This document shows positions 7,267 through 60,206 of a stretch of 64,000 nt of DNA, piece after piece; position 1 is the stretch's first letter, and each line of letters begins with the position of its first letter. Source of the DNA: Methanohalophilus mahii DSM 5219 (GTDB taxonomy: Archaea > Halobacteriota > Methanosarcinia > Methanosarcinales > Methanosarcinaceae); assembly GCF_000025865.1 (NCBI RefSeq), contig NC_014002.1:310001-374000 (forward strand), in the 5' to 3' direction. Position numbers and translations under genes: made by a program. The notes below the pieces were generated by a model, which had not been told where the DNA came from, ran no database searches, and worked only from the letters and a program-made list of their open reading frames with translations.

Positions 7267-7460
7267 TTGTAGCTATTCCGGGATTTCAACCTTGGATTAA
7301 ATGCTTTATGTAAGGGTTCCGCTCTTGCATTCATCACAATATATTTTCTGCATCTAATCTCTTTTCAATAAATATCTGACACTTTTTGCCAGGGATATCC
7401 AATACATTTCATGTACAGGGGTTTGTTTTTTCCTTTTCCAATAGTTTTAATATCTATGTG

Positions 7461-7470
7461 GCCTATAAAA
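7461..7470 (+). promoter_or_regulatory. TATA box for thi4
   Basis: The element gcctataaaa lies about 25-30 bases upstream of a GAGG Shine-Dalgarno at 7491-7494. That spacing fits a short-leader transcript starting near 7490 and favours the ATG at 7503 over the upstream ATG at 7470, which overlaps the element. Confidence 0.5.
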
Positions 7471-7502
7471 TGAGCAAATTAGCAGCATTTGAGGCAGGAT
7501 TC

Positions 7503-8279
7503 ATGGAACTTGATGAGAGAATTATTACCCGAGCGATAGTTGAAGAATTTACCAATGTTTTTCTGGACTATACTGATGTTGACGTGGCCCTGGTAGGGGG
7601 GGGTCCGGCAAACCTTGTTGCTGCACGTTATCTTGCAGAAGCAGGATTAAAGACTGTACTTTTTGAGAAGAAACTATCTGTGGGAGGCGGTATGTGGGGC
7701 GGTGGCATGATGTTCCCGCGTATTGTGGTCCAGGAAGAAGCGCGCAGGATCCTTGATGATTTTGATGTACCATATCATGAGTATGAAGAAGGTTACTATG
7801 TGGCAAACTCAGTTGGTACTGTGGGCAAACTTATAAGCGCAGCGGTTTCTGCAGGGGTTGAAATATTCAATCTGGTAAGTTTTGAGGATGTTATGATACG
7901 GGATAAAGATGAGGTATGCGGGCTTGTTATTAACTGGACAGCAGTTGAAATAGGCCGGCTTCATGTTGATCCTCTTACAATCCGTTCTCGCCTGGTACTT
8001 GACGGAACCGGCCACGAGGCTACTGTATGCAATACTGTGCAGCGCAAGATACCCGGGGCTTTTGGCGGTAAAGGGGTGGTGGGTGAAAAACCAATGTGGG
8101 CTGATACTGGTGAGCGTCTTGTAATGGAAAATACCCGGGAAGTTTATCCCGGTCTGATAGTTACAGGTATGGCTGCCAATGCCGTTGCAGGTTCTCCTCG
8201 CATGGGTCCTGTTTTTGGAGGGATGCTTCTTTCAGGCGAAAAGGCCGCACAGCTTGCAATTTCCCGTCTGAAAGACTGA
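7503..8279 (+). CDS. thi4: Thi4-family thiazole synthase, sulfide-using (His) type
   Basis: A 258-residue Thi4 homolog, which makes the thiazole moiety of thiamine from NAD, glycine and a sulfur source. The start at 7503 (ELDERIITRAI) has GAGG eight bases upstream and matches family length; ATG at 7470 is the alternative. The FAD/NAD-type GGGPANLVAARYLAE motif lies near residue 28, and GGGMWGGGMMFPR follows. In the segment VEIGRLHVDPLT the position of the sacrificial cysteine of yeast THI4 is histidine (about His154). This is the pattern known for methanogen Thi4, which uses free sulfide catalytically. A damaged thiL lies at 28.5 kb. Confidence 0.92.
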   Translation: MELDERIITRAIVEEFTNVFLDYTDVDVALVGGGPANLVAARYLAEAGLKTVLFEKKLSVGGGMWGGGMMFPRIVVQEEARRILDDFDVPYHEYEEGYYVANSVGTVGKLISAAVSAGVEIFNLVSFEDVMIRDKDEVCGLVINWTAVEIGRLHVDPLTIRSRLVLDGTGHEATVCNTVQRKIPGAFGGKGVVGEKPMWADTGERLVMENTREVYPGLIVTGMAANAVAGSPRMGPVFGGMLLSGEKAAQLAISRLKD

Positions 8280-11608: not shown

Positions 11609-12181
11609 ATAAAACCGGAAATAAGGATTCTGGGTATTGATGATTCAGCGCTGGTAAGTGACCGTATACTTGTGGTAGGGACTTTTTTCAGAGGGGGGAT
11701 GTGGCTTGACGGAGTGTTATCCACCTACATTACCAGGGATGGTATGGATGCTACCGATTCATTAATAAAGATGATATCAGCCAGCAAACACAGGAATCAG
11801 GCGCGTGTGATAATGCTGGATGGAGTCACATACGGTGGTTTCAATCCGATTGATATCGTGCGTTTAAATGAATCTACAGGAATGGGTGTGATTGTGCTGA
11901 TGCGCTCGATGCCTGATTTTGAGAATATAAAAAATGCTCTATATCATCTGGAATACCCGGATGAAAGGTTTGCGATAATAAAAAAAGCAGGCAGGATATC
12001 GAGGGTGGTAACTTCACATTCCCATACGCCGGTTTACATCCAGTGTGCAGGCATCGATGAAATTTCCGCCACCAGGATAGTCCAGTTAAGTGCCACCCAT
12101 AGCAATATTCCAGAGCCTTTGAGGGTTGCACATCTCATTGCCACAGGTATTATTTGTGGTGAATCCTGCGGTAAACCTTGA
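11609..12181 (+). CDS. DUF99 family protein, no canonical start codon
   Basis: A DUF99 family protein of about 190 residues and unknown function; the fold resembles endonuclease V but I cannot show activity. The conserved N-terminus IKPEIRILGIDDSALVSDR lies upstream of the first canonical initiator, GTG 11672, which would cut off this motif. Between the pan stop (11577-11579) and this motif there is no in-frame ATG, GTG or TTG. The listed start is ATA at 11609; TTT at 11603 or CAT at 11606 are where a family start would be expected. AGGGGGT at 11581-11587 could serve as Shine-Dalgarno. It follows pan closely and is probably co-transcribed. Confidence 0.75.
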   Translation: MKPEIRILGIDDSALVSDRILVVGTFFRGGMWLDGVLSTYITRDGMDATDSLIKMISASKHRNQARVIMLDGVTYGGFNPIDIVRLNESTGMGVIVLMRSMPDFENIKNALYHLEYPDERFAIIKKAGRISRVVTSHSHTPVYIQCAGIDEISATRIVQLSATHSNIPEPLRVAHLIATGIICGESCGKP

Positions 12182-18022: not shown

Positions 18023-19501
18023 GTGTCTGGTAAGGGATTATGGAAAAAAAGTGTTGAATCAATCAGGAAACCTTTAGAAGATGGACATAGAATTGCCCTG
18101 GAAAAAGGTATTAGTGAAACAGCTATAATTGATTTTAGTTCGACATCCAATCCTATGGGCAGTCCCTTTGATCACCCGGGTTGCAAACTCTGTCTGGAAG
18201 ATCTTTTTTCCCGTGTGGGATCCATGTATTCCCACTTCCATGATAATGAATATTCAGAATTAAGGGCCAGTGCTGCCAAATATTTTGGAAAAAATATTTC
18301 TGCTGATAACATTGTTCCTGCTCTGGGAGTTGAAGATGTAATACGCATGGTATCTTCCTCGGTAATTGAAACAGGGGATACCGTTATTCTGAGCAGGTCG
18401 CAGAACCCTGCCAATGAAAAACATTGTATAATCAGTGGTGGGGAAGTGAGGTATGTTTTTGAGGAGGATTTTAAAAACATATCATCAGATGTGCTTAACA
18501 AGGCAAAAATAATCCTGCTTACCAACCCTGACAATCTTTCAGGCCAGCTTTATTCAAAAAAGGATTTGATTTCTCTTCTACAACGCTGTAATGTCCATTC
18601 CACCCTGCTGGTGGTCGATGAAAGCCTGTTAGACTTAACAGACGTATCTGCCACTTTGGTTGATGAAGTACCTTCTGTTACCAATCTTCTGGTGATACGC
18701 TCCCTGAAAAACACCTTTTCCCTTCCCGGGGCAGGAATCTCTTTTGGTATTACTGATGTGGATTTTGCAACGATTCTGAACAGGGTCCGCAACTGCTGCA
18801 ATATAGGGCCAATGGATGAAGCAGTTGCTCTGTCCTTGTTGGATATGCCTTCCGATATTGCGAATGATTATCTGACTGCTTCAAGACAATTTGTCCGGGA
18901 AAACCGCCAGTATCTTATGGAACGGCTGGGCAAGGTGCGCAGGTTCATACCACATGAAAGTAATACATCCTTTGTACTTGTTGATGTAAGCGCTGCGAGT
19001 CTCGATTCGGTCGAATTGACTCACAGGCTTGCTGAAAAGGGTCTTCTTGTAAGGGATTGTTCCTGCTTTTATTCCATGGATCGTAATTTTATCAGGGTCT
19101 CGGTGAGACCGAAAGAGGATACTGATAGGCTTGTGGAGGCTATAGGGACAGTCGTAGTTGACAGTGCCCGGGATAGTGCCATGGAGAACCTTAACCAGAT
19201 ACTGGACGAAGAACCCGTCAGGCCTCTTGGTGCTAACACGGCCTGTCCATATTATCCCTGCCATTTCAAGGGTCAGGATTGCACTTTCTGTTTTTGCCCC
19301 TTTTATCCCTGCGGGGATGAGCGCACAGGAGGCAGGTGGGTTTGTCGCTCAAGTGGAGGTAGGGTGTGGAGTTGTGAAAAATGTGGTCTGGTCCACAAAA
19401 AACAAAATGTACAGAAACTCCTTGATGTCCTCAAAGGTGAGGGGGAGATGGAAGACAAACTCAAAAAAGCCTGGGATGAGGTAATGGAGCCCCTATTATG
19501 A
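18023..19501 (+). CDS. cobD: L-threonine-O-3-phosphate decarboxylase CobD with C-terminal Cys-rich domain
   Basis: The first 370 or so residues are a PLP fold-type I enzyme that forms (R)-1-aminopropan-2-ol phosphate for the cobamide nucleotide loop. The PLP lysine lies in VIRSLKNTFSLPGAG (about residue 235), and LTNPDNLSGQLYSKKDL is the cofactor-binding region. Residues of about 405-465 form a cysteine-rich domain beginning CPYYPCHFKGQDCTFC and ending WSCEKCGLVHK. The M. mazei homolog is, as I recall, a bifunctional threonine kinase/decarboxylase; here the kinase role is inference. The start is GTG 18023. The gene overlaps cbiB by four bases and opens the cobamide cluster. Confidence 0.9.
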   Translation: MSGKGLWKKSVESIRKPLEDGHRIALEKGISETAIIDFSSTSNPMGSPFDHPGCKLCLEDLFSRVGSMYSHFHDNEYSELRASAAKYFGKNISADNIVPALGVEDVIRMVSSSVIETGDTVILSRSQNPANEKHCIISGGEVRYVFEEDFKNISSDVLNKAKIILLTNPDNLSGQLYSKKDLISLLQRCNVHSTLLVVDESLLDLTDVSATLVDEVPSVTNLLVIRSLKNTFSLPGAGISFGITDVDFATILNRVRNCCNIGPMDEAVALSLLDMPSDIANDYLTASRQFVRENRQYLMERLGKVRRFIPHESNTSFVLVDVSAASLDSVELTHRLAEKGLLVRDCSCFYSMDRNFIRVSVRPKEDTDRLVEAIGTVVVDSARDSAMENLNQILDEEPVRPLGANTACPYYPCHFKGQDCTFCFCPFYPCGDERTGGRWVCRSSGGRVWSCEKCGLVHKKQNVQKLLDVLKGEGEMEDKLKKAWDEVMEPLL

Positions 19502-28259: not shown

Positions 28260-28463
28260 GTAAGTTCTTTATATGTGCCGGCAGTACCTTTTATAATGTA
28301 TGTTTATGAGAAGCATGCCTGCTGAATCATTGCCTGTCCTGCAGGTAGTTGATTTAAAGGTGTGATTTCTGGCTTTTTCCGATGTCTTCTGATTTGATAA
28401 ACCAGAACATTCGTATTGATTATATGATGCGAAGGCAGGCATTGGATATTTCCGGAGGTTTCG

Positions 28464-29451
28464 ATGGTATCAACGATAAAGGATATTGATGAACGCGCAT
28501 TTATCGCACAGCTGGCTTCAGTTTTTGGCAGGGGAAAAGATGAATTAAAGGTGCCTGCCGGGGATGATGACTGCAGTCCTTGAATTTGGCGGGGAGTACC
28601 TTGTGGTTACTACGGACATGTTGCACCAGAAGACCGACTTTCCCGATACAATGACTCCCTGGCAGATCGGCTGGATGGCTGCTGCGGTGAATTTCAGTGA
28701 TATTGCTGCAATGGGCGGCCAGCCTCTGGGTTTGCTTGCAGCTGTGGGCTATCCCCAAAACATGTCTCTGGAAGACGCCGGGGAAATCGCCCGGGGAATG
28801 CGAGATTGTGCAGAATTCTGTGGCACTTCGGTAATCGGGGGAGATGTGGATTCCCATGAGGAACTTACTGTCACAGGAACTGCCATGGGCAGGGTTTCCA
28901 AAGAAGAACTTCTCACCCGCAAAGGCGCAAAACCGGGTGACCTGCTCTGTGTTACTGCCACCCTGGGAGGAGCCGGGGCAGCCCTGGAGGCCTATCTGAA
29001 AAATATGAATGTTGATGATGATTTCATGAAACCCCTGCTGGAACCGGTCCCCCGGATTGCCGAGGGCAGAAAGCTTGCAAAAAGCGGTGCTGTGACCTCT
29101 GCCATGGATACCAGCGACGGGCTGGCACTGTCGCTGTATGATCTTGCATCTGTTAATAAAGTGGGATTTGTCCTGAAGGAAGAATCCCTGCCAATAGACA
29201 AGCGTGTGTTTGAGATTGCTACAAGCAAGAAAGAAGCCCTGGAAATGGCACTGTATTCAGGCGGGGATTTCGAGTTATTGGTAACGGTTTCAAAGGATAA
29301 GTTCAAAGCGTTACAGGCCGAATCTTATTTAACTGTTGTAGGAGAAGTTGTTGACATTGATGGGGCTATTAGTTTGATTGGCAAAGATGGGGCAAACTTT
29401 GCTATTGATCGAAAAGGTTATTTACATATGGGAACATCTGATCAGATATGA
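28464..29451 (+). pseudogene. thiL: Thiamine-monophosphate kinase, frameshifted
   Basis: ThiL phosphorylates thiamine monophosphate to the active diphosphate. An excellent start (ATG 28464, GGAGG five bases before) opens a frame reading IDERAFIAQLASVFGRG and VPAGDDDC, the expected family N-terminus with its metal/ATP aspartates. This frame stops at 28581-28583. The remainder, AVLEFGGEYLVVTTDMLHQ through the C-terminus, continues in another frame up to 29451. Comparison with the expected DDCAVLEF suggests loss of one GC from TGCGCAGTC near 28574. Translation from the internal ATG 28564 would lack the conserved aspartates. It may be a true mutation, a sequencing error or recoding. Confidence 0.85.
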
Positions 29452-29472: not shown

Positions 29473-32400
29473 ATGAAAACCGGATTTAAGATTTTATTGA
29501 TAGGATTTATGATTATTGGAATGGGTTGTGGAGTGGCAGCTGCAGAGTCGGCACCTAACGCTTCTGTAACTAACGTATCTTCTGATGTTGATAGTGCTAC
29601 AATAGATTTCAATGTAAATCAGAGTGATGCTTCGACTCGCATTGCCTACGGTATTTCTAATTCCCTTTCCTCTTGGTCTGATTGGAATTATGAAGATTCT
29701 AATAGTCGCAGTATTGTTCTTTCAGAATTAAATGATGGGACCATGTATTATTACAGCGTTTATGCTTACAATGGTACTAATGATAGTTTTGTGTATAATA
29801 CCACGATTTCTACATTTAACACAGATTCTCCAACTGCACCTAACGCTTCTGTAACTAACGTATCTTCTGATGTTGATAGTGCTACAATAGATTTCAATGT
29901 AAATCAGAGTGATGCTTCGACTCGCATTGCCTACGGTATTTCTAATTCCCTTTCCTCTTGGTCTGATTGGAATTATGAAGATTCTAATAGTCGCAGTATT
30001 GTTCTTTCAGAATTAAATGATAGGACCATGTATTATTACAGCGTTTATGCTTACAATGGTACTAATGATAGTTTTGTGTATAATACCACGATTGCTACGC
30101 TTAACACGACTTCTCCAACTGCACCTAACGCTTCTGTAACTAACGTATCTTCTGATGTTGATAGTGCTACAATAGATTTCAATGTAAATCAGAGTGATGC
30201 TTCGACTCGCATTGCCTACGGTATTTCTAATTCCCTTTCCTCTTGGTCTGATTGGAATTATGAAGATTCTAATAGTCGCAGTATTGTTCTTTCAGAATTA
30301 AATGATGGAACCATGTATTATTACAGCGTTTATGCTTACAATGGTACTAATGATAGTTTTGTGTATAATACCACGATTGCTACGCTTAACACGACTTCTC
30401 CAACTGCACCTTCAATTTCTGATATATCTTCATCTAATATTGGTGGTGACCGCGCTACGATAAATTATGTAGTTAATCAGAGTGATGCACCTACCAGAAT
30501 TGCTTACGGTACTTCTTCTGATCTGTCTTCTTATGAATGGTCAGGTTGGTTTAATGATTCAACAGTTCACAACGAGACCATTTCAAATTTGAATGGATCT
30601 ACGAAGTACTATTACAGCATTTATGCTTACAATGAAAGCAACAATAGTGTATTTTACAATTCATCTATAGAAAGTTTCACAACAATTTCTAATTGGGGAG
30701 ACCGTATTTGGGATGAAAAAGCAAACCAGTCCAATAAATACACATGGGATGGTCGCAGTTTCTCCGGCTTCTACTATGATCTTGACACAGGTGACACATC
30801 CGAATCCATGACAATCACCATTGATGGTCGCAGAATAGATGATGGAGATCTTGTCTATACTACAAAACCCATCGACAAGGAGTTTGAATTTGGCTCCTGG
30901 GGAGAGTATCAGATAATCGGATTCATGGCAGAGAGATATTTTGCCGGCTATTCTGTAAATACTTCCAGCGATGTTACAGGTGATGATGTCAGTCTGATTT
31001 CTGACGGTGTCCTATCAAAGGTTTTGATAGATACAGACGATGATGAATCTGTCTACTCCGGATCATCTCTCACTCTTGAAGAAGGCTATTCTCTCAACAT
31101 CAAACAGGTTGATGTGAATGGTGATAGTGTATGGATAAGTCTTACTAAAGATGGGGATGAGGTCGATGATGCAATTCTTTCCTCCGATGAAACCTATGTT
31201 TATGAAAAGGATCTTGGGGGAGTAGATGATGTTCCTGTAATTGCCGTACACATTGATGATGTATTCAGCGGTACTGAGACAAACGCTGTTTTCATAGATG
31301 GCATCTTCCAGATTTCAGATGACTATGTGGAAGTAGACAGAGGAGATGAATTTGGTGAAATGGAAGTAACGTCTCTTTCTTCTACTGAAATAAAGATGGA
31401 AAATGAAGACTCTATAAGTCTTGATGAAGGTGACATTATTGACATCATGGGCAAACTCAAATTCATAGTAGCAGACGATAATGATGTATTGAGATTTGCA
31501 CCTTTTGTTGACATGTCCGAACCCGGCACCTATGAACTCAGGGGTACCATTGCTGAAGATGAAGGATTCAGCTGGACACCTCTTAATTTTGAAGGGTTCT
31601 ATTATGATATCGATGAAGGATTAAGAAGTGAGTCTCTCAATGTGACTAATTATAATGGCCGGAATATAGACGCAGGCGATCTAATCTATAAATCCACTCC
31701 TGTAGAAGTCGAGTTTGAATATGGGCCATGGGGTAAATACAATGTGATAGGTTTCATGGCCGAGAAATACTTCGCCGGTTACTCTGGTGATACAAGTGAT
31801 GACATCACAGATGATACTATAAGCCTCATGTCCAGCGGTCAGCTCTCTAAGGTCCTCATAGACGATGACGATGAAAAATCGGTTTATACAGGCTCTTCCC
31901 TGATTCTGGAAGAAGGTTATGCTCTCAACATCCGGGAAATTGATGTCAACGGTGACAGGGTAATGATTCAGCTGACTCAGGATGGCGACAATATTGAGTC
32001 AGCTATAGTATCTTCCGATGATGAATATGTCTATGAGAAAGATGTCGGTGATGAGGACGATGTACCAATAATTGTTGTTCATTTCAATGAAATATTCAGC
32101 GGTACCGAAACCAGTGCCGTATTCGTTGAAGGCATCTTCCAGATTTCTGAAGATTATCTGGAAGTTGAAGATGGAGATGACTTTGGAGTAATGACCGTTG
32201 ATAGTACAAGTGGAAGCATTATCCTTGAAAACGAAGATAACATCGACCTTGATGAAGGTGACACCATAGACATCATGGGTGAGATCAAATTCAAGGTTGC
32301 CGATGACAGCAGTACTGTCCGTTATTACCCATTCGTTGAAGTGGAAACAAAACCCTATGACTCACTGGACATTGACATCGAACCAACCACAGTTGTCGAA

Positions 32401-33273
32401 GGTGATGAGATCACTTTCACAGTAACATCCCGTGGGGCTGCTATCAGGGACGCATCAATACTCATCCATGGTGACAGGGTCGGAATCACTTCAGATGAAG
32501 GTGTTTTCGAGTATGATGCTGATGATGCGGGTAAGTTTACTGCAACAGCTGAAAAGGAAGGTTATGTTTCATCAAAGGGCAATTTCGAAGTGATTTCCCC
32601 GGATGATGAGAGCAAAAAGATCAGTATCGAAGTTTCCCCGGAGGAAGTCTTTGAGGGTACACCGATAACAATCTCTGTGGTCAAGGCGATCGGCTCTGAA
32701 CCACTGGAGGGTGCCGAGGTATTCTTTGATGGCAAATCCCTGGGTGAAACCGATGAGGATGGCACGATAACCTACAATCCCAAAGAGCCCGGTACACACA
32801 AGATCGAGGCCAAGGTTGATGGTTACCTTGATGCGGAATTGAATATCAAGGTCAATGAACTGGCAGCAAACTTCGAATTCAGTAACCTGAGGATTGATCC
32901 ACTGCCTGCCACTGCCGGTGAGGAATTCACGGTGATGCTTGATTCGATCAACACAGGTAATGCAGAGGGTAGTTACACTGTCGAGTTATCGATCAACGAC
33001 AATGTGGTCGACAGCCAGGAAATAACTCTCGGACAGAACAATTCCACAACCATTGAATTCACCTCTACTGCAGGTGAACCGGGTACCTATCTTGTAAAGG
33101 CAGGCGGCCTGTCAACAACCATGGATGTGGAAGAGGGAACCAGTATTGTATGGTATGTGCTTGGAGGCCTTGTCCTTGTACTTGGTGGAGGTGCAGCCTA
33201 CATATTTGCCACAGGCGGAACTGCCAAATTCGCTGAGATCGCAGAATCCCTGCGTTCCAGGCTGGGCAGGTAA
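29473..33273 (+). CDS. S-layer family protein with Fn3-like repeats and two DUF1608-type domains
   Basis: A 1266-residue exported cell-envelope protein. Residues 1-25 form a signal peptide (KILLIGFMIIGMGCGVAAA). Residues 27-311 are three nearly identical 95-residue repeats and 312-406 a diverged fourth, with a fibronectin-type-III-like pattern. Each identical repeat has six N-glycosylation sequons. Two Methanosarcina-type S-layer domains follow at about 423-679 and 697-957 (GFYYDLDTGDTSES and GFYYDIDEGLRSES start them). Two carboxypeptidase-regulatory/PEGA-like beta domains and a CARDB-like domain follow, then a transmembrane anchor at about 1225-1247 and a short basic tail. It could be the main S-layer protein or an auxiliary one. 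AAGGAG precedes the ATG. Confidence 0.9.
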   Translation: MKTGFKILLIGFMIIGMGCGVAAAESAPNASVTNVSSDVDSATIDFNVNQSDASTRIAYGISNSLSSWSDWNYEDSNSRSIVLSELNDGTMYYYSVYAYNGTNDSFVYNTTISTFNTDSPTAPNASVTNVSSDVDSATIDFNVNQSDASTRIAYGISNSLSSWSDWNYEDSNSRSIVLSELNDRTMYYYSVYAYNGTNDSFVYNTTIATLNTTSPTAPNASVTNVSSDVDSATIDFNVNQSDASTRIAYGISNSLSSWSDWNYEDSNSRSIVLSELNDGTMYYYSVYAYNGTNDSFVYNTTIATLNTTSPTAPSISDISSSNIGGDRATINYVVNQSDAPTRIAYGTSSDLSSYEWSGWFNDSTVHNETISNLNGSTKYYYSIYAYNESNNSVFYNSSIESFTTISNWGDRIWDEKANQSNKYTWDGRSFSGFYYDLDTGDTSESMTITIDGRRIDDGDLVYTTKPIDKEFEFGSWGEYQIIGFMAERYFAGYSVNTSSDVTGDDVSLISDGVLSKVLIDTDDDESVYSGSSLTLEEGYSLNIKQVDVNGDSVWISLTKDGDEVDDAILSSDETYVYEKDLGGVDDVPVIAVHIDDVFSGTETNAVFIDGIFQISDDYVEVDRGDEFGEMEVTSLSSTEIKMENEDSISLDEGDIIDIMGKLKFIVADDNDVLRFAPFVDMSEPGTYELRGTIAEDEGFSWTPLNFEGFYYDIDEGLRSESLNVTNYNGRNIDAGDLIYKSTPVEVEFEYGPWGKYNVIGFMAEKYFAGYSGDTSDDITDDTISLMSSGQLSKVLIDDDDEKSVYTGSSLILEEGYALNIREIDVNGDRVMIQLTQDGDNIESAIVSSDDEYVYEKDVGDEDDVPIIVVHFNEIFSGTETSAVFVEGIFQISEDYLEVEDGDDFGVMTVDSTSGSIILENEDNIDLDEGDTIDIMGEIKFKVADDSSTVRYYPFVEVETKPYDSLDIDIEPTTVVEGDEITFTVTSRGAAIRDASILIHGDRVGITSDEGVFEYDADDAGKFTATAEKEGYVSSKGNFEVISPDDESKKISIEVSPEEVFEGTPITISVVKAIGSEPLEGAEVFFDGKSLGETDEDGTITYNPKEPGTHKIEAKVDGYLDAELNIKVNELAANFEFSNLRIDPLPATAGEEFTVMLDSINTGNAEGSYTVELSINDNVVDSQEITLGQNNSTTIEFTSTAGEPGTYLVKAGGLSTTMDVEEGTSIVWYVLGGLVLVLGGGAAYIFATGGTAKFAEIAESLRSRLGR
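29551..30405 (+). repeat. Three tandem 285-bp coding repeats, near identical
   Basis: Units begin at 29551, 29836 and 30121, each with gcacctaacg. They agree at nearly every base including silent positions. Differences that I see are a single G/A position in the aatgat-gg-accatg stretch of each copy and a handful of changes in the last 35 bases of copy 1. A fourth, diverged unit in the same register begins at 30406. This indicates recent amplification or gene conversion. Confidence 0.95.
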
Positions 33274-33965: not shown

Positions 33966-33989
33966 GACTATATAGTAGACTATAGTGAT
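33966..33989 (+). promoter_or_regulatory. Tandem 12-base repeats over the ABC transporter promoter
   Basis: GACTATATAGTA at 33966-33977 is followed directly by GACTATAGTGAT at 33978-33989. The first contains the palindrome ACTATATAGT, which is also a good TATA element about 40 bases before the ATG at 34012. Binding of the divergent XRE regulator here would block the basal transcription factors. This is inference from position. Confidence 0.4.
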
Positions 33990-34011
33990 AAATATAAAAA
34001 GGTGGATCATA

Positions 34012-35022
34012 ATGAAAAAAATAAGTAAAATACTATTCCTCATACTTGTTGTGGCAGGTTCTGTCTTCCTTGCAGGCTGTGCTTCTCAGGATGGAGATGG
34101 CACAGAAGAGGCGGCGGACGTGACCACTCTTAACATAGGTTATCAACCCAGTACCCATCAGCTTTCCTATATGACAGCAAGGGAAAAAGGATGGTGGGAA
34201 GAGGATCTTGCTTCCTATGGTGTGGAAGAAGTGAAAGAATATGAATTTCCGACCGGTGCTCCTGAAATGCAGGCAATGCTTGCAGGAGACCTGGATGTGG
34301 CCTATGTCGGCGCTGCACCATTCATATCAGCCTTGAGTAACGGTCTTGATGCCAAAGTAGTTGCAGGCGTGAATTCCCAGGGATCCGATCTTGTATTGCG
34401 TCCTGAACATTCCTATGAAGGTCCTGAGGATCTCAAGGGATTGAGCATCGCAACGTTCCCGCCAGGTACAATTCAGGATACAATTCTGCGTGACTGGTTG
34501 AAAGATAATGGTGTAGATCCTGATGATGATGTTGATATAAAGCCGATGGGCCCCGGTGATGCCATCTCTGCAATTTCCGCAGGCCAGATTGATGCTGCAT
34601 TCCTTCCCCACCCTGCTCCAACACTGATTGAACAGGAAGGTAACGGCAGGTCTGTTGTATATTCCGGTGAAATGCTACCTGACCATGCATGCTGTGTGCT
34701 TGTTGTAAGTGGAAACCTGATACGCAATCATCCAGAAATGGTAACCGAGATTGTAAATACCCACATAAAAGCCACAGATTATAATCTTGAAAATCAGGAT
34801 GAAGCTGCACAGATATTTGCAGAAAGACAGGGATGGGAAGTTAATGTGGTCCGTACTTCCATTGATGAATGGGATGGCCAGTGGATTGCTGACCCTGCCA
34901 TAATTGCAGATTCCACTGTGGATTATGCACAGGTGCAGTATGAACTTGGTTATGTCAATGAAAAGTTTACCCGGGAAGACATATTTGATATGAGCTTCTA
35001 TGAACTGGCCATAACTGAGTAA
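34012..35022 (+). CDS. ABC transporter substrate-binding lipoprotein (SsuA/TauA/NitT type)
   Basis: A 336-residue exported binding protein. It begins with a lipoprotein signal (KKISKILFLILVVAGSVFLAG then Cys in the lipobox LAGCASQ) and a short acidic linker. The mature part has TTLNIGYQPSTHQLSYMTAR, ATFPPGTIQDTILRDWL and the SAGQIDAAFLPHPAP motif typical of the sulfonate/taurine/nitrate-type periplasmic-binding family. The substrate is not evident. ATG 34012 is preferred, with GGTGG about seven bases upstream; an ATG at 33985 would spoil the signal peptide. The permease and ATPase genes follow. Confidence 0.9.
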   Translation: MKKISKILFLILVVAGSVFLAGCASQDGDGTEEAADVTTLNIGYQPSTHQLSYMTAREKGWWEEDLASYGVEEVKEYEFPTGAPEMQAMLAGDLDVAYVGAAPFISALSNGLDAKVVAGVNSQGSDLVLRPEHSYEGPEDLKGLSIATFPPGTIQDTILRDWLKDNGVDPDDDVDIKPMGPGDAISAISAGQIDAAFLPHPAPTLIEQEGNGRSVVYSGEMLPDHACCVLVVSGNLIRNHPEMVTEIVNTHIKATDYNLENQDEAAQIFAERQGWEVNVVRTSIDEWDGQWIADPAIIADSTVDYAQVQYELGYVNEKFTREDIFDMSFYELAITE

Positions 35023-35106
35023 AATAAACAGCAACCTTTTTAAAGACCTGTTGATTATAGGTCGCCGGAAGTGGAGGCTATTCCTCCACACATTTCCGGA
35101 GGTATC

Positions 35107-35886
35107 ATGAAAACCAAACCGGTTTCAAAAAAAGGCATAGAAATCATTTCCCTGGTAACAGCCATTATTTTATGGCAACTTTTAGCTGATCTTGTTATAG
35201 GGAATACCTTCATTCTTCCAAGTTTTACAGATGTAGTTTATGCTTTCATCACAATAATCGAAAGGGGAGTTCTGTTCACCGATCTTACGATAAGTCTGCT
35301 GCACTTTGGAATAGGTATCATTTCGGCTCTTGTTATAGGTGTCCCAATCGGGATTGCAATGGGATGGTTCCATAATGCAGACAGGGTAGCAGATCCCCTG
35401 ATTGAGATTGTGCGCCCGATTCCTCCTCTTGCATGGATTCCCTTTGCAATTGTGTGGTTTGGTCTGACTCACATATCTGCCGGATTTGTAGTTTTTGTAG
35501 GAGCCGTTTTCCCGATTATTATCAATACATTGACCGGTTTCAAAAGTGTTTCAAAAGTTTATGTGGAAGCCGGCAAGGTGCTGGGTTGTATGAAAAGTAC
35601 CTCTCTTATTCGTTATATTGCACTACCCTATTCACTGCCCTCTATAGCTGCAGGCATAAGAATTGCCATGGGTGTTGGCTGGATGTGTCTGGTAGCAGCT
35701 GAGATGTTCGGTGTCAGTAAAAACGGTCTGGGATACAAGATATGGTGGCATTATTATCTTCACCAGATGGATTTTGTGCTGGTCTACATGCTCATTCTGG
35801 GCTTTTTGGGGCTATTGATAGATCGTGTTTTCCGCTGGTATGTGGACGGGAAATTGCTTAAATGGAGAAAAGGAGTCGTTGTTTAA
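35107..35886 (+). CDS. ABC transporter permease (SsuC type)
   Basis: A 259-residue inner-membrane permease of the nitrate/sulfonate/taurine family. About six hydrophobic helices are visible, and the coupling EAA-like loop is EAGKVLGCMKSTSLIRYIALP (the EAGK-LG pattern at about residue 155). GVPIGIAMGWFHNADRVADP and PIPPLAWIPFAIVWFG are also family typical. ATG 35107 has a strong GGAGG five bases upstream and is preferred to the in-frame ATG at 35071. The ATPase gene starts at the next base after the stop. Confidence 0.9.
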   Translation: MKTKPVSKKGIEIISLVTAIILWQLLADLVIGNTFILPSFTDVVYAFITIIERGVLFTDLTISLLHFGIGIISALVIGVPIGIAMGWFHNADRVADPLIEIVRPIPPLAWIPFAIVWFGLTHISAGFVVFVGAVFPIIINTLTGFKSVSKVYVEAGKVLGCMKSTSLIRYIALPYSLPSIAAGIRIAMGVGWMCLVAAEMFGVSKNGLGYKIWWHYYLHQMDFVLVYMLILGFLGLLIDRVFRWYVDGKLLKWRKGVVV

Positions 35887-36642
35887 ATGGGCAGACTTGT
35901 GATTGAGAATGTGGGGCAGAGTTTTGAGAAGGATAAGGGTGAGTCTACCGATGCTCTCAAAGATGTGAACTTTGAGGTAAAAGATGGTGAATTTGTCTGT
36001 ATCATTGGGCCATCAGGTTGTGGAAAAACTACCCTTTTGCGCATTGTTGCCGGATTGGACAGGGCGGATTCGGGCAGGATCCTACTGGATGGTGAGACGA
36101 TAACTTCTCCCGATCCACGCAGGGGGATGGTCTTTCAGGAATATTCATTGTTCCCCTGGAGAACGGTTATAGACAATGTGACATTTGGTCTGGATATGAG
36201 TGGTATGGATAGGAAAGAATCCAGGAAGATTGCTGAAGAATATCTGAGGCTTGTAGGCCTTGAACAGTTCCGGGACAGTTATCCTTACGAACTTTCAGGA
36301 GGAATGAGACAAAGGATCGCTATTGTCAGGGCCCTTGCAAACGATCCTGCAGTTTTGCTTATGGATGAGCCTTTTGGGTCCCTTGATGCCCAGACACGCA
36401 ATAAACTCCAGCAGGAACTGTTACAGATATGGGAATCTAAGAAGATAACAATTCTTTTTGTAACACACAGTGTGGATGAAGCAGTTTATCTCTCCGACAG
36501 GATTGCTGTTATGACTTCCCGTCCCGGGCGAATAAAGGAAATGGTTGATGTCGATCTACCTCGTCCCAGGGACAGGACAAGTATCTCTGCAAATAAACTG
36601 CGTAACAGGCTGCTGAAAATGCTGGCTGAAGAAAATAAATAA
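35887..36642 (+). CDS. ABC transporter ATPase (SsuB/TauB type)
   Basis: A 251-residue ABC ATPase with Walker A IGPSGCGKTTLLRIVAG (about residue 40), Q-loop VFQEYSLFPWRTV, signature LSGGMRQRIAIVRAL, Walker B VLLMDEPFGSLDAQTR and H-loop FVTHSVDEAVYLSDR. The order and the PGRIKEMVDVDLPRPRDR tail place it in the nitrate/sulfonate/taurine group. It immediately follows its permease gene and is convergent, one base apart, with the bactofilin-like gene. Confidence 0.93.
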   Translation: MGRLVIENVGQSFEKDKGESTDALKDVNFEVKDGEFVCIIGPSGCGKTTLLRIVAGLDRADSGRILLDGETITSPDPRRGMVFQEYSLFPWRTVIDNVTFGLDMSGMDRKESRKIAEEYLRLVGLEQFRDSYPYELSGGMRQRIAIVRALANDPAVLLMDEPFGSLDAQTRNKLQQELLQIWESKKITILFVTHSVDEAVYLSDRIAVMTSRPGRIKEMVDVDLPRPRDRTSISANKLRNRLLKMLAEENK

Positions 36643-58116: not shown

Positions 58117-59331
58117 ATGACAGTTATACGTACCCTTGAAAAGGATAAGATGGATGTGGCCGAAGGTTCCTATGCAGTGGCTCATGCTGTGAAGGTATGC
58201 AGGCCAAATATTATTTCCGCATATCCTATCACACCACAGACCCATATTGTGGAGGACCTTTCCCAGTTTATGGCCGATGGTGAGATTCCCAACTGTGAAT
58301 ATATAAACGTGGAATCCGAGTTCTCCGCCCTTTCAGCCCTAGTGGGATCCGCAGCAGCAGGTGCACGGTGTTATTCAGCCACCACCTCACAGGGTCTGGA
58401 ACTGATGCACGAGGTTCTTTTCAATGTGTCAGGGATGCGCCTGCCAGTTGTAATGACCATAGCAAATCGTGCGGTCAGTGCCCCTATCAACATCTGGAAC
58501 GATCATCAGGATTCCATTTCCCAGCGTGATACCGGCTGGATCCAGATGTATGCTGAGGACCTGCAGGAAATTTCGGATATGACCGCCCAGGCTTACAGGG
58601 TTGCAGAAGATAAGGATGTAATGATGCCTGCAATGACCTGTATGGATGGTTTCATCCTGTCTCATGTTTATGAGCCCGTGGTATTGCTGGAACAGGATCT
58701 TGTGGATGAATATCTGCCTGCTTTTGAACCGGAATATACACTCGATCCTAAAAACCCGCTGACCTTCGGTGCCTTTGCAGATCCGAGTGCATATACGGAA
58801 TTCAGGTATCTGCAGCAACAGGCAATGGATAATGCACTACCCAAAATAGAAGAAGCTGCCAATGAGTTCTATGAGATATTTGGAAGGTACTATGGTGGCC
58901 TGATTGATGAATATGAGACAGAAGATGCTGACATCATACTCATGGCTATGGGTTCACTTGTGGGAACCATCAGGGATGTCGTGGATAAACTCCGTGCGAA
59001 AGGAGTCAAGGTTGGTTTGCTTAAAGTAAGGACTTTCAGGCCATTCCCGGCAGAAGCAATAAAGAATGTTATCAAGGATGCCAAAGTCGTTGTCGCACTT
59101 GACAAGAACATCTCTTTAGGACTCAATGAAGGTTCTCTCTTTACCGAGACCAAGGCAAGCCTGTATAATACTAAGGTTGATGTCCCGATAGTGGGCAGGA
59201 TGCTTGGCCACGGTGGTCGTGACATTCCCGTAAAAACCATTGAGGACATTGTAGAGGAAGCCAAAGGCATAATCTCTTCGGGTATCAATACTGAGAGCAA
59301 ATATGCTGATCTGAAGGAGGAATTGTTGTGA
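58117..59331 (+). CDS. porA: Pyruvate:ferredoxin oxidoreductase alpha subunit
   Basis: A 404-residue alpha subunit. It contains [19 protein letters not shown], the conserved [19 protein letters not shown] and [20 protein letters not shown], a central [19 protein letters not shown] and a C-terminal [11 protein letters not shown]. This subunit forms half of the TPP-binding catalytic core with PorB. It overlaps porB by four bases. Confidence 0.96.
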
Positions 59332-60206
59332 AATCATTGTTTACATCAGGACACCGTGGTTGCGCAGGTTGCTGTGACGCAATGGTGGCCAAGTTCACCC
59401 TTATGGCCGCAGGGGAAGACTGTATCGTTATATCTCCTACCGGCTGTCTGGAAGTTATGAGTACACCCTATCCTGAAACTTCCTGGGAGGTTCCATGGAT
59501 ACACTCCCTTTTCGAGAATGCAGGAGCTGTGGCTTCTGGTGTGGAAGCTGCCCTTAAAGCAATGGGTAAGAAAGGTGATACCAAGGTAATCGCTCTGGCG
59601 GGAGATGGTGCTACCCTTGATATAGGGATGAGGTCCATTTCCGGTGCCTTTGAGCGGGGTCATGATATTACCTATGTATGTATCGATAATGAGGCATACA
59701 TGAATACCGGTGTGCAGAGAAGTGGTGCCACACCCTTTGATGCATCCACCACAACAAGCCCTGCCGGAAAGGTTTCCTATGGGAATCCCAGACCCAAAAA
59801 GAACATGCCTGCAATTATGGCAGCTCATGGTTCTCCATACATTGCCACAACTTCCCTTGGTTATCCCAAGGACATGATCAAGAAGATCAAGAAAGCAACA
59901 GAGATTGAAGGTCCCACCTACATCCATGCCCATGCGCCCTGTACCACAGGTTGGGGTTTTGACACTTCAAAGACCGTGGAAGTTGCAAAACTGGCAGTAC
60001 AGACCGGTCTGTGGCCGCTGTATGAAATGGAAAACGGTGAAGTTACAAAGGTACGCAAGATAGGTAAACAGAAAAAACCTGTCGAGGATTATCTCAAGAT
60101 GCAGAAGCGGTTCAAACATCTTTTCAAAATGGAAGGTGGAGAGGAACAGCTCAAACTGATCCAGGCACTTGCAGATAAAAATATTGAAGATTTCGGGCTT
60201 GAATAA
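59328..60206 (+). CDS. porB: Pyruvate:ferredoxin oxidoreductase beta subunit
   Basis: A 292-residue TPP-binding subunit. The N-terminal [16 protein letters not shown] carries cysteines for a [4Fe-4S] cluster, with a further Cys in [15 protein letters not shown]. The TPP/Mg motif is [16 protein letters not shown] through [16 protein letters not shown] (about residues 85-130). The product is acetyl-CoA for assimilation, or pyruvate in the reverse direction. It closes the por operon. Confidence 0.96.

Follow-up and report, generated by a model that had tools for sequence, protein, structure and literature searches.

Does the halophilic methanogen Methanohalophilus mahii, an archaeon, carry a broken copy of thiL, whose product completes the activation of vitamin B1, or is the break confined to its reference sequence? 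We addressed this question in a window of 64,000 nucleotides, corresponding to positions 310001-374000 of the single-contig, complete 2,012,424-bp chromosome of M. mahii SLP. Coordinates given below are those of the window, on its plus strand, unless stated otherwise. The gene opens with an ATG (28464-28466) that comes after TTCCGGAGGTTTCG, and the GGAGGT read directly at 28454..28459 bears out the good ribosome-binding site that the first-pass annotation had assigned to it. The 5' part of thiL (28464..28583, frame 0) consists of 39 codons and a TGA, encodes an N-terminal helix and a GDDDC loop, and is translated as MVSTIKDIDERAFIAQLASVFGRGKDELKVPAGDDDCSP up to the stop at 28581-28583; the peptide ends in VPAGDDDCSP, and the frame does close just after VPAGDDDC, as had been described. 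The 3' part (28564..29451) lies in the +1 frame, with its first ATGs at 28564 and 28567 and homology from 28573, and no further stop or frame break follows in it. The break site itself, GACTGCAGTC (28569..28578), is a perfect 10-bp palindrome and is 2 bases shorter in the alignment than the corresponding site of all seven congeners. The stretch 28564-28583, from the first internal ATG to the stop, is 338,564-338,583 in genome coordinates.

The identification of the gene as thiL is well founded, as its 3' part alone passes the TIGR01379 model (267.7 bits for a cut-off of 184.15, model positions 28-319). As with other ThiL proteins, which have AIRS/AIRS_C domains, its alignment to the model is complete from position 28 onwards, and the 3' part matches the solved chains 8yks, 5dd7 and 3c9r. 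It differs from them in two respects: the first 37 residues, including the DDC loop, sit in another frame, and one invariant glycine is an alanine. By score, the 3' part alone reaches the level set for ThiL, but the break at 28569-28578 leaves the DDC loop outside the open frame of the catalytic body.

What the split removes can be judged from the ThiL of Acinetobacter baumannii, in which, as described, ATP lies at the dimer interface, N-terminal helix included, and an N-terminal Ile-Gly-Asp-x-Asp loop contacts the ribose-phosphate moiety of the bound nucleotide, ADP or AMPPNP (PMC6416309). The name "metal-binding motif", under which the loop had first been annotated, is therefore a loose one, although the DDC loop is indeed located in the split-off 5' part. 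The split-off 39 codons take in this helix as well as the loop on the ATP side. From the gene as recorded, two products at most are expected: an N-terminal peptide of 39 residues and, should an internal ATG serve as start, a 295-residue fragment devoid of helix and loop. Since it would lack both, a product started at the internal ATGs is predicted to be inactive and should not phosphorylate thiamine monophosphate.

The frame break is confirmed by comparison with the genus. A DNA search covering eight genomes, own genome included and M. mahii being represented by that genome alone, gave seven congeners, all of which have 2 extra bases right after GATGAC in a MAFFT alignment. All seven score over the TIGR01379 cut-off in one frame, with matches that begin at model positions 2-5 (about 27-28 for the window), and the surroundings of thiL are collinear in the three congeners compared. 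At a wider scale, the 60 related genomes searched, own included, all have a TIGR01379 match, which is over the cut-off in 53 of them. The wider ThiL set comprised 76 loci, or 63 distinct relatives once 13 duplicates were removed; the DDC columns are invariant in it. As the DDC loop and the enzyme body are in one frame in all 63 relatives, the break is specific to the window's genome among the genomes compared, and chance is not a concern for its reality. Intact thiL orthologues in the sister species (7/7 congeners) are what a pseudogene calls for, whereas a programmed +1 frameshift calls for a conserved shift site together with the break, and the break is found in 0/7 congeners. On the reading favoured below, this would be an ordinary, young frame break seen in one genome, and neither a conserved nor a programmed feature. 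As a separate observation, the start of thiL (28451-28750) is closest to the copy of congener G004 (97-98% DNA identity), while its 3' part is closest, at the protein level, to that of congener G007 (91.8%). These differing nearest relatives possibly reflect recombination inside the gene.

Regarding how the two bases were lost, the most likely route would be replication slippage, dropping one TG of a TGTG pair; beside it would stand a G-to-A difference, which turns GCG into GCA, both alanine, and would be silent in the original frame. At the break site, where the window reads TGCA, six congeners read TGTGCG and the seventh TGCGCT, and none of the seven contains the TGCGCAGTC that the first-pass annotation had expected. 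Loss of one TG with a silent G/A difference would hence fit better than the bases that had been guessed. A template switch at the quasi-palindrome, as a one-step cause, could explain both changes but is not needed, slippage plus a silent difference being simpler; the window has 63 palindromes of this 10-bp kind in 63,991 positions, close to the chance expectation. The idea that a new CTGCAG site is avoided was dropped, as the window has 38 such sites.

The 3' part gives some indication of the age of the break. Over the 292 aligned codons that follow it, the window has 15 nonsynonymous and 12 synonymous unique changes, compared with 26 and 37 for five close congeners pooled, the two distant congeners being omitted from this count. 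There is thus no significant excess of amino-acid changes in the window relative to the five close congeners (Fisher p = 0.25). Taken one by one, these congeners show nonsynonymous to synonymous ratios of 1:9, 2:5, 6:4, 11:5 and 6:14, so that one with an intact thiL reaches 11 to 5. The alanine mentioned above (G132A in P0001 numbering, codon 28957..28959) replaces a glycine shared by 63/63 relatives. It is a weak sign of relaxed constraint, because departures from one or another otherwise invariant column are also seen in 9/63 relatives, although in none of the seven congeners. The thiL break is either recent or absent from the DNA of the living cell.

Is the enzyme needed? The first-pass annotation took the thiamine pathway to be in use, and its genes are present. 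The window contains thi4, encoding a sulfide-dependent ADP-thiazole synthase (7386..8279, +; TIGR00292, 315.5 bits, cut-off 148.3), and elsewhere in the genome are three ThiC-family homologues and a ThiN homologue, the latter in a 444-residue open frame. The window also encodes the beta subunit of pyruvate synthase, a thiamine pyrophosphate-dependent type of enzyme (porB, 59328..60206, +; NF008819, 421.4 bits, cut-off 405). The second thiL and the thiamine transporter that had been suggested as ways out were sought in the genome, the transporter through three uptake families, and neither was found. Four other TIGR01379 matches, at 36-92 bits, were rejected as second copies, being below the cut-off of 184.15, and none of the uptake families ThiT, ThiB and NCS1 has a match in the genome. 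Nor does any thiamine pyrophosphokinase in the genome pass its cut-off; the only PF04263 match (22.2 vs 30.7 bits) sits in a 208-residue protein that is probably similar to archaeal pterin diphosphokinases of the MptE type. We found no TPP riboswitch in the window, where only two tRNAs reach the gathering threshold, and no thiL copy in phage records. Of the known routes to thiamine pyrophosphate, only ThiL was found in this genome, and its complete loss would be odd, as the first-pass annotation had rightly anticipated; this keeps an error in the reference alive as an explanation. As for physiology, the strain is described as growing heterotrophically on methanol or methylamines, biotin stimulating its growth in mineral medium (PMC3017947), and its growth factors are entered as not reported in a later table (PMC6491703).

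Two features lie downstream of the gene. An S-layer family protein (29473-33273; TIGR01567, 514 bits) has repeated N-terminal segments; the long DNA matches to congeners G007 and G003 leave out roughly 29.5-30.7 kb, and those to G005 a shorter part. Two genes after thiL, an SsuA/NMT1-type ABC transporter is encoded at 33985-36642 (binding protein, permease and ATPase; PF13379 130 bits, PF09084 61 bits), for which a thiamine precursor is a possible candidate ligand.

The quality of the reference and the state of other genes also bear on the question. What differs in thiL is one unit of a dinucleotide pair and not a homopolymer miscount, and Sanger errors do not usually take the form of a two-base loss away from homopolymers. 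The genome was sequenced by Sanger only, at 8-fold average coverage, and finished, with a stated error rate of less than 1 in 100,000 (PMC3017947), which allows up to about 20 errors in 2 Mb. The genome paper, in its own count, gives 45 pseudogenes (PMC3017947), and a methylome study drew on single-molecule data for M. mahii (PMC4752239; GEO GSE69872). A draft genome of another strain, M. mahii DAL1, has also been published (MAFX01000000, PMC5009974). Among the titles listed by literature searches on ThiL with archaea and on Methanohalophilus with thiamine, none concerns the thiL break.

A survey of 404 kb of the genome against collinear DNA of G007 flagged 10 events in the 283 G007 genes that have a counterpart in the window's genome, and 7/273 in the reverse direction. 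These are upper counts, several of the events being start-site or spurious-ORF artefacts as judged by eye, and they are close enough for the two genomes to be regarded as much alike in flagged breaks. Internal stops in four window genes look like start-site differences, being located at codons 6-18. Among the other events, nikR (genome 281663-282080, minus; about 11663-12080 of stretch L108) is split by a two-base deletion relative to the 7/7 congeners aligned, with about 98% amino-acid identity to G007 on either side of the break. A flavodoxin-like gene (genome 432106-432540, plus; about 18106-18540 of stretch L112), aligned with four congeners, has a 6-base deletion that results in a TAA at codon 41. 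In coaD, encoding pantetheine-phosphate adenylyltransferase (genome 270756-271217, minus; about 756-1217 of L108), codon 44 is an in-frame TAG, against GAG, GGG or GGT in five congeners; NF001985 matches the G007 copy at 188.9 bits. A TAG in the citrate synthase gene of this genome has been described (PMC3017947), and alongside it the coaD TAG may be read as pyrrolysine. A search combining pyrrolysine, Methanohalophilus and "TAG codons" found no paper.

Taking these results together, we lean slightly towards a real and recent two-base deletion in the single thiL copy, without rescue. The small genome-specific breaks in other conserved genes (nikR, flavodoxin, coaD) count in favour of the deletion being present in the living cell's DNA, as do the dinucleotide-unit nature of the change in a finished Sanger genome and the 45 pseudogenes counted; the Gly to Ala change at an invariant column adds weakly. 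Conversely, the lack of a significant amino-acid change excess in the 3' part counts against it, and reported growth in mineral medium, with ThiL as the only known route, suggests a working enzyme. The close rival, to which we give a substantial but lesser probability, is that the living strain has an intact thiL and that the reference is in error, through a base call, a clone mutation or thinly covered finishing. The constraint still visible in the rest of thiL would then be as expected, as would the growth in mineral medium and the single copy of a gene for whose product no substitute was found, and Sanger-only data at 8-fold leave room for the error within the 20 or so allowed. Against this, a two-base loss outside a homopolymer is atypical for Sanger reads, and similar multi-base differences exist in other genes of the genome, though these could be errors too. 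There is a precedent for such an error, the frame-broken aIF1 of Sulfolobus solfataricus being reported as full length on re-sequencing (PMC8211752).

A real deletion could also be compensated for, and we consider it unlikely that some full-length ThiL is made by a +1 slip at the end of frame 0, or that stop-restart at the internal ATGs yields two pieces with some joint activity. Frame 0 ends in CCT TGA (28578..28583, read directly), from where slipping forward by one base would lead back into the thiL frame and give a product one residue shorter than those of congeners, and the ATGs at 28564 and 28567 are located shortly before the TGA, by 17 and 14 bases. The CCT-TGA arrangement, however, results from the deletion, in a single genome, and nothing about it is conserved; no well-spaced ribosome-binding site was seen for an internal ATG of the 3' part. 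Corrective frameshifting of indels is known, mostly from mitochondria as presented in PMC5009743, but for cellular archaeal genes PMC8211752 describes only -1 frameshifting as shown, and a +1 case as merely suggested, in a haloarchaeal virus. It is quite improbable that the loss is real and that +1 slipping at CCU-UGA supplies the cell with the little full-length ThiL on which it lives; were it true, it would be a natural corrective frameshift in a needed cellular archaeal gene. We regard it as least probable of all that a true loss is tolerated through uptake of thiamine pyrophosphate or an unrecognised kinase. The ABC transporter just downstream would be the candidate for uptake, but the collinear DNA is also present in congeners with an intact thiL and no ThiT, ThiB or NCS1 match exists; the lone thiamine pyrophosphokinase-like match stays below its cut-off, and the genome retains ThiN and the three ThiC-family genes.

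The preferred reading, that of a real deletion, likens this thiL to the recent frameshift pseudogenes of single archaeal lineages, with one small indel in an otherwise full-length gene and intact sister copies, but thiL differs from them in being expected to be needed for growth, so that error or rescue has to be considered. As in aIF1 and fucA1 of S. solfataricus, the break falls within a gene that would be expected to function; those cases are described as a -1 shift at slippery tracts or as a gene found intact on re-sequencing (PMC8211752), whereas thiL would need a +1 shift, without a conserved site.

If the break is a reference error, a note should be added to the record of this species, the type species of Methanohalophilus, and the strain should not be entered in metabolic models as unable to finish vitamin B1. 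If it is real, M. mahii would be a methanogen without a known means of making thiamine pyrophosphate, which is a small puzzle. Either outcome leaves general understanding unchanged.
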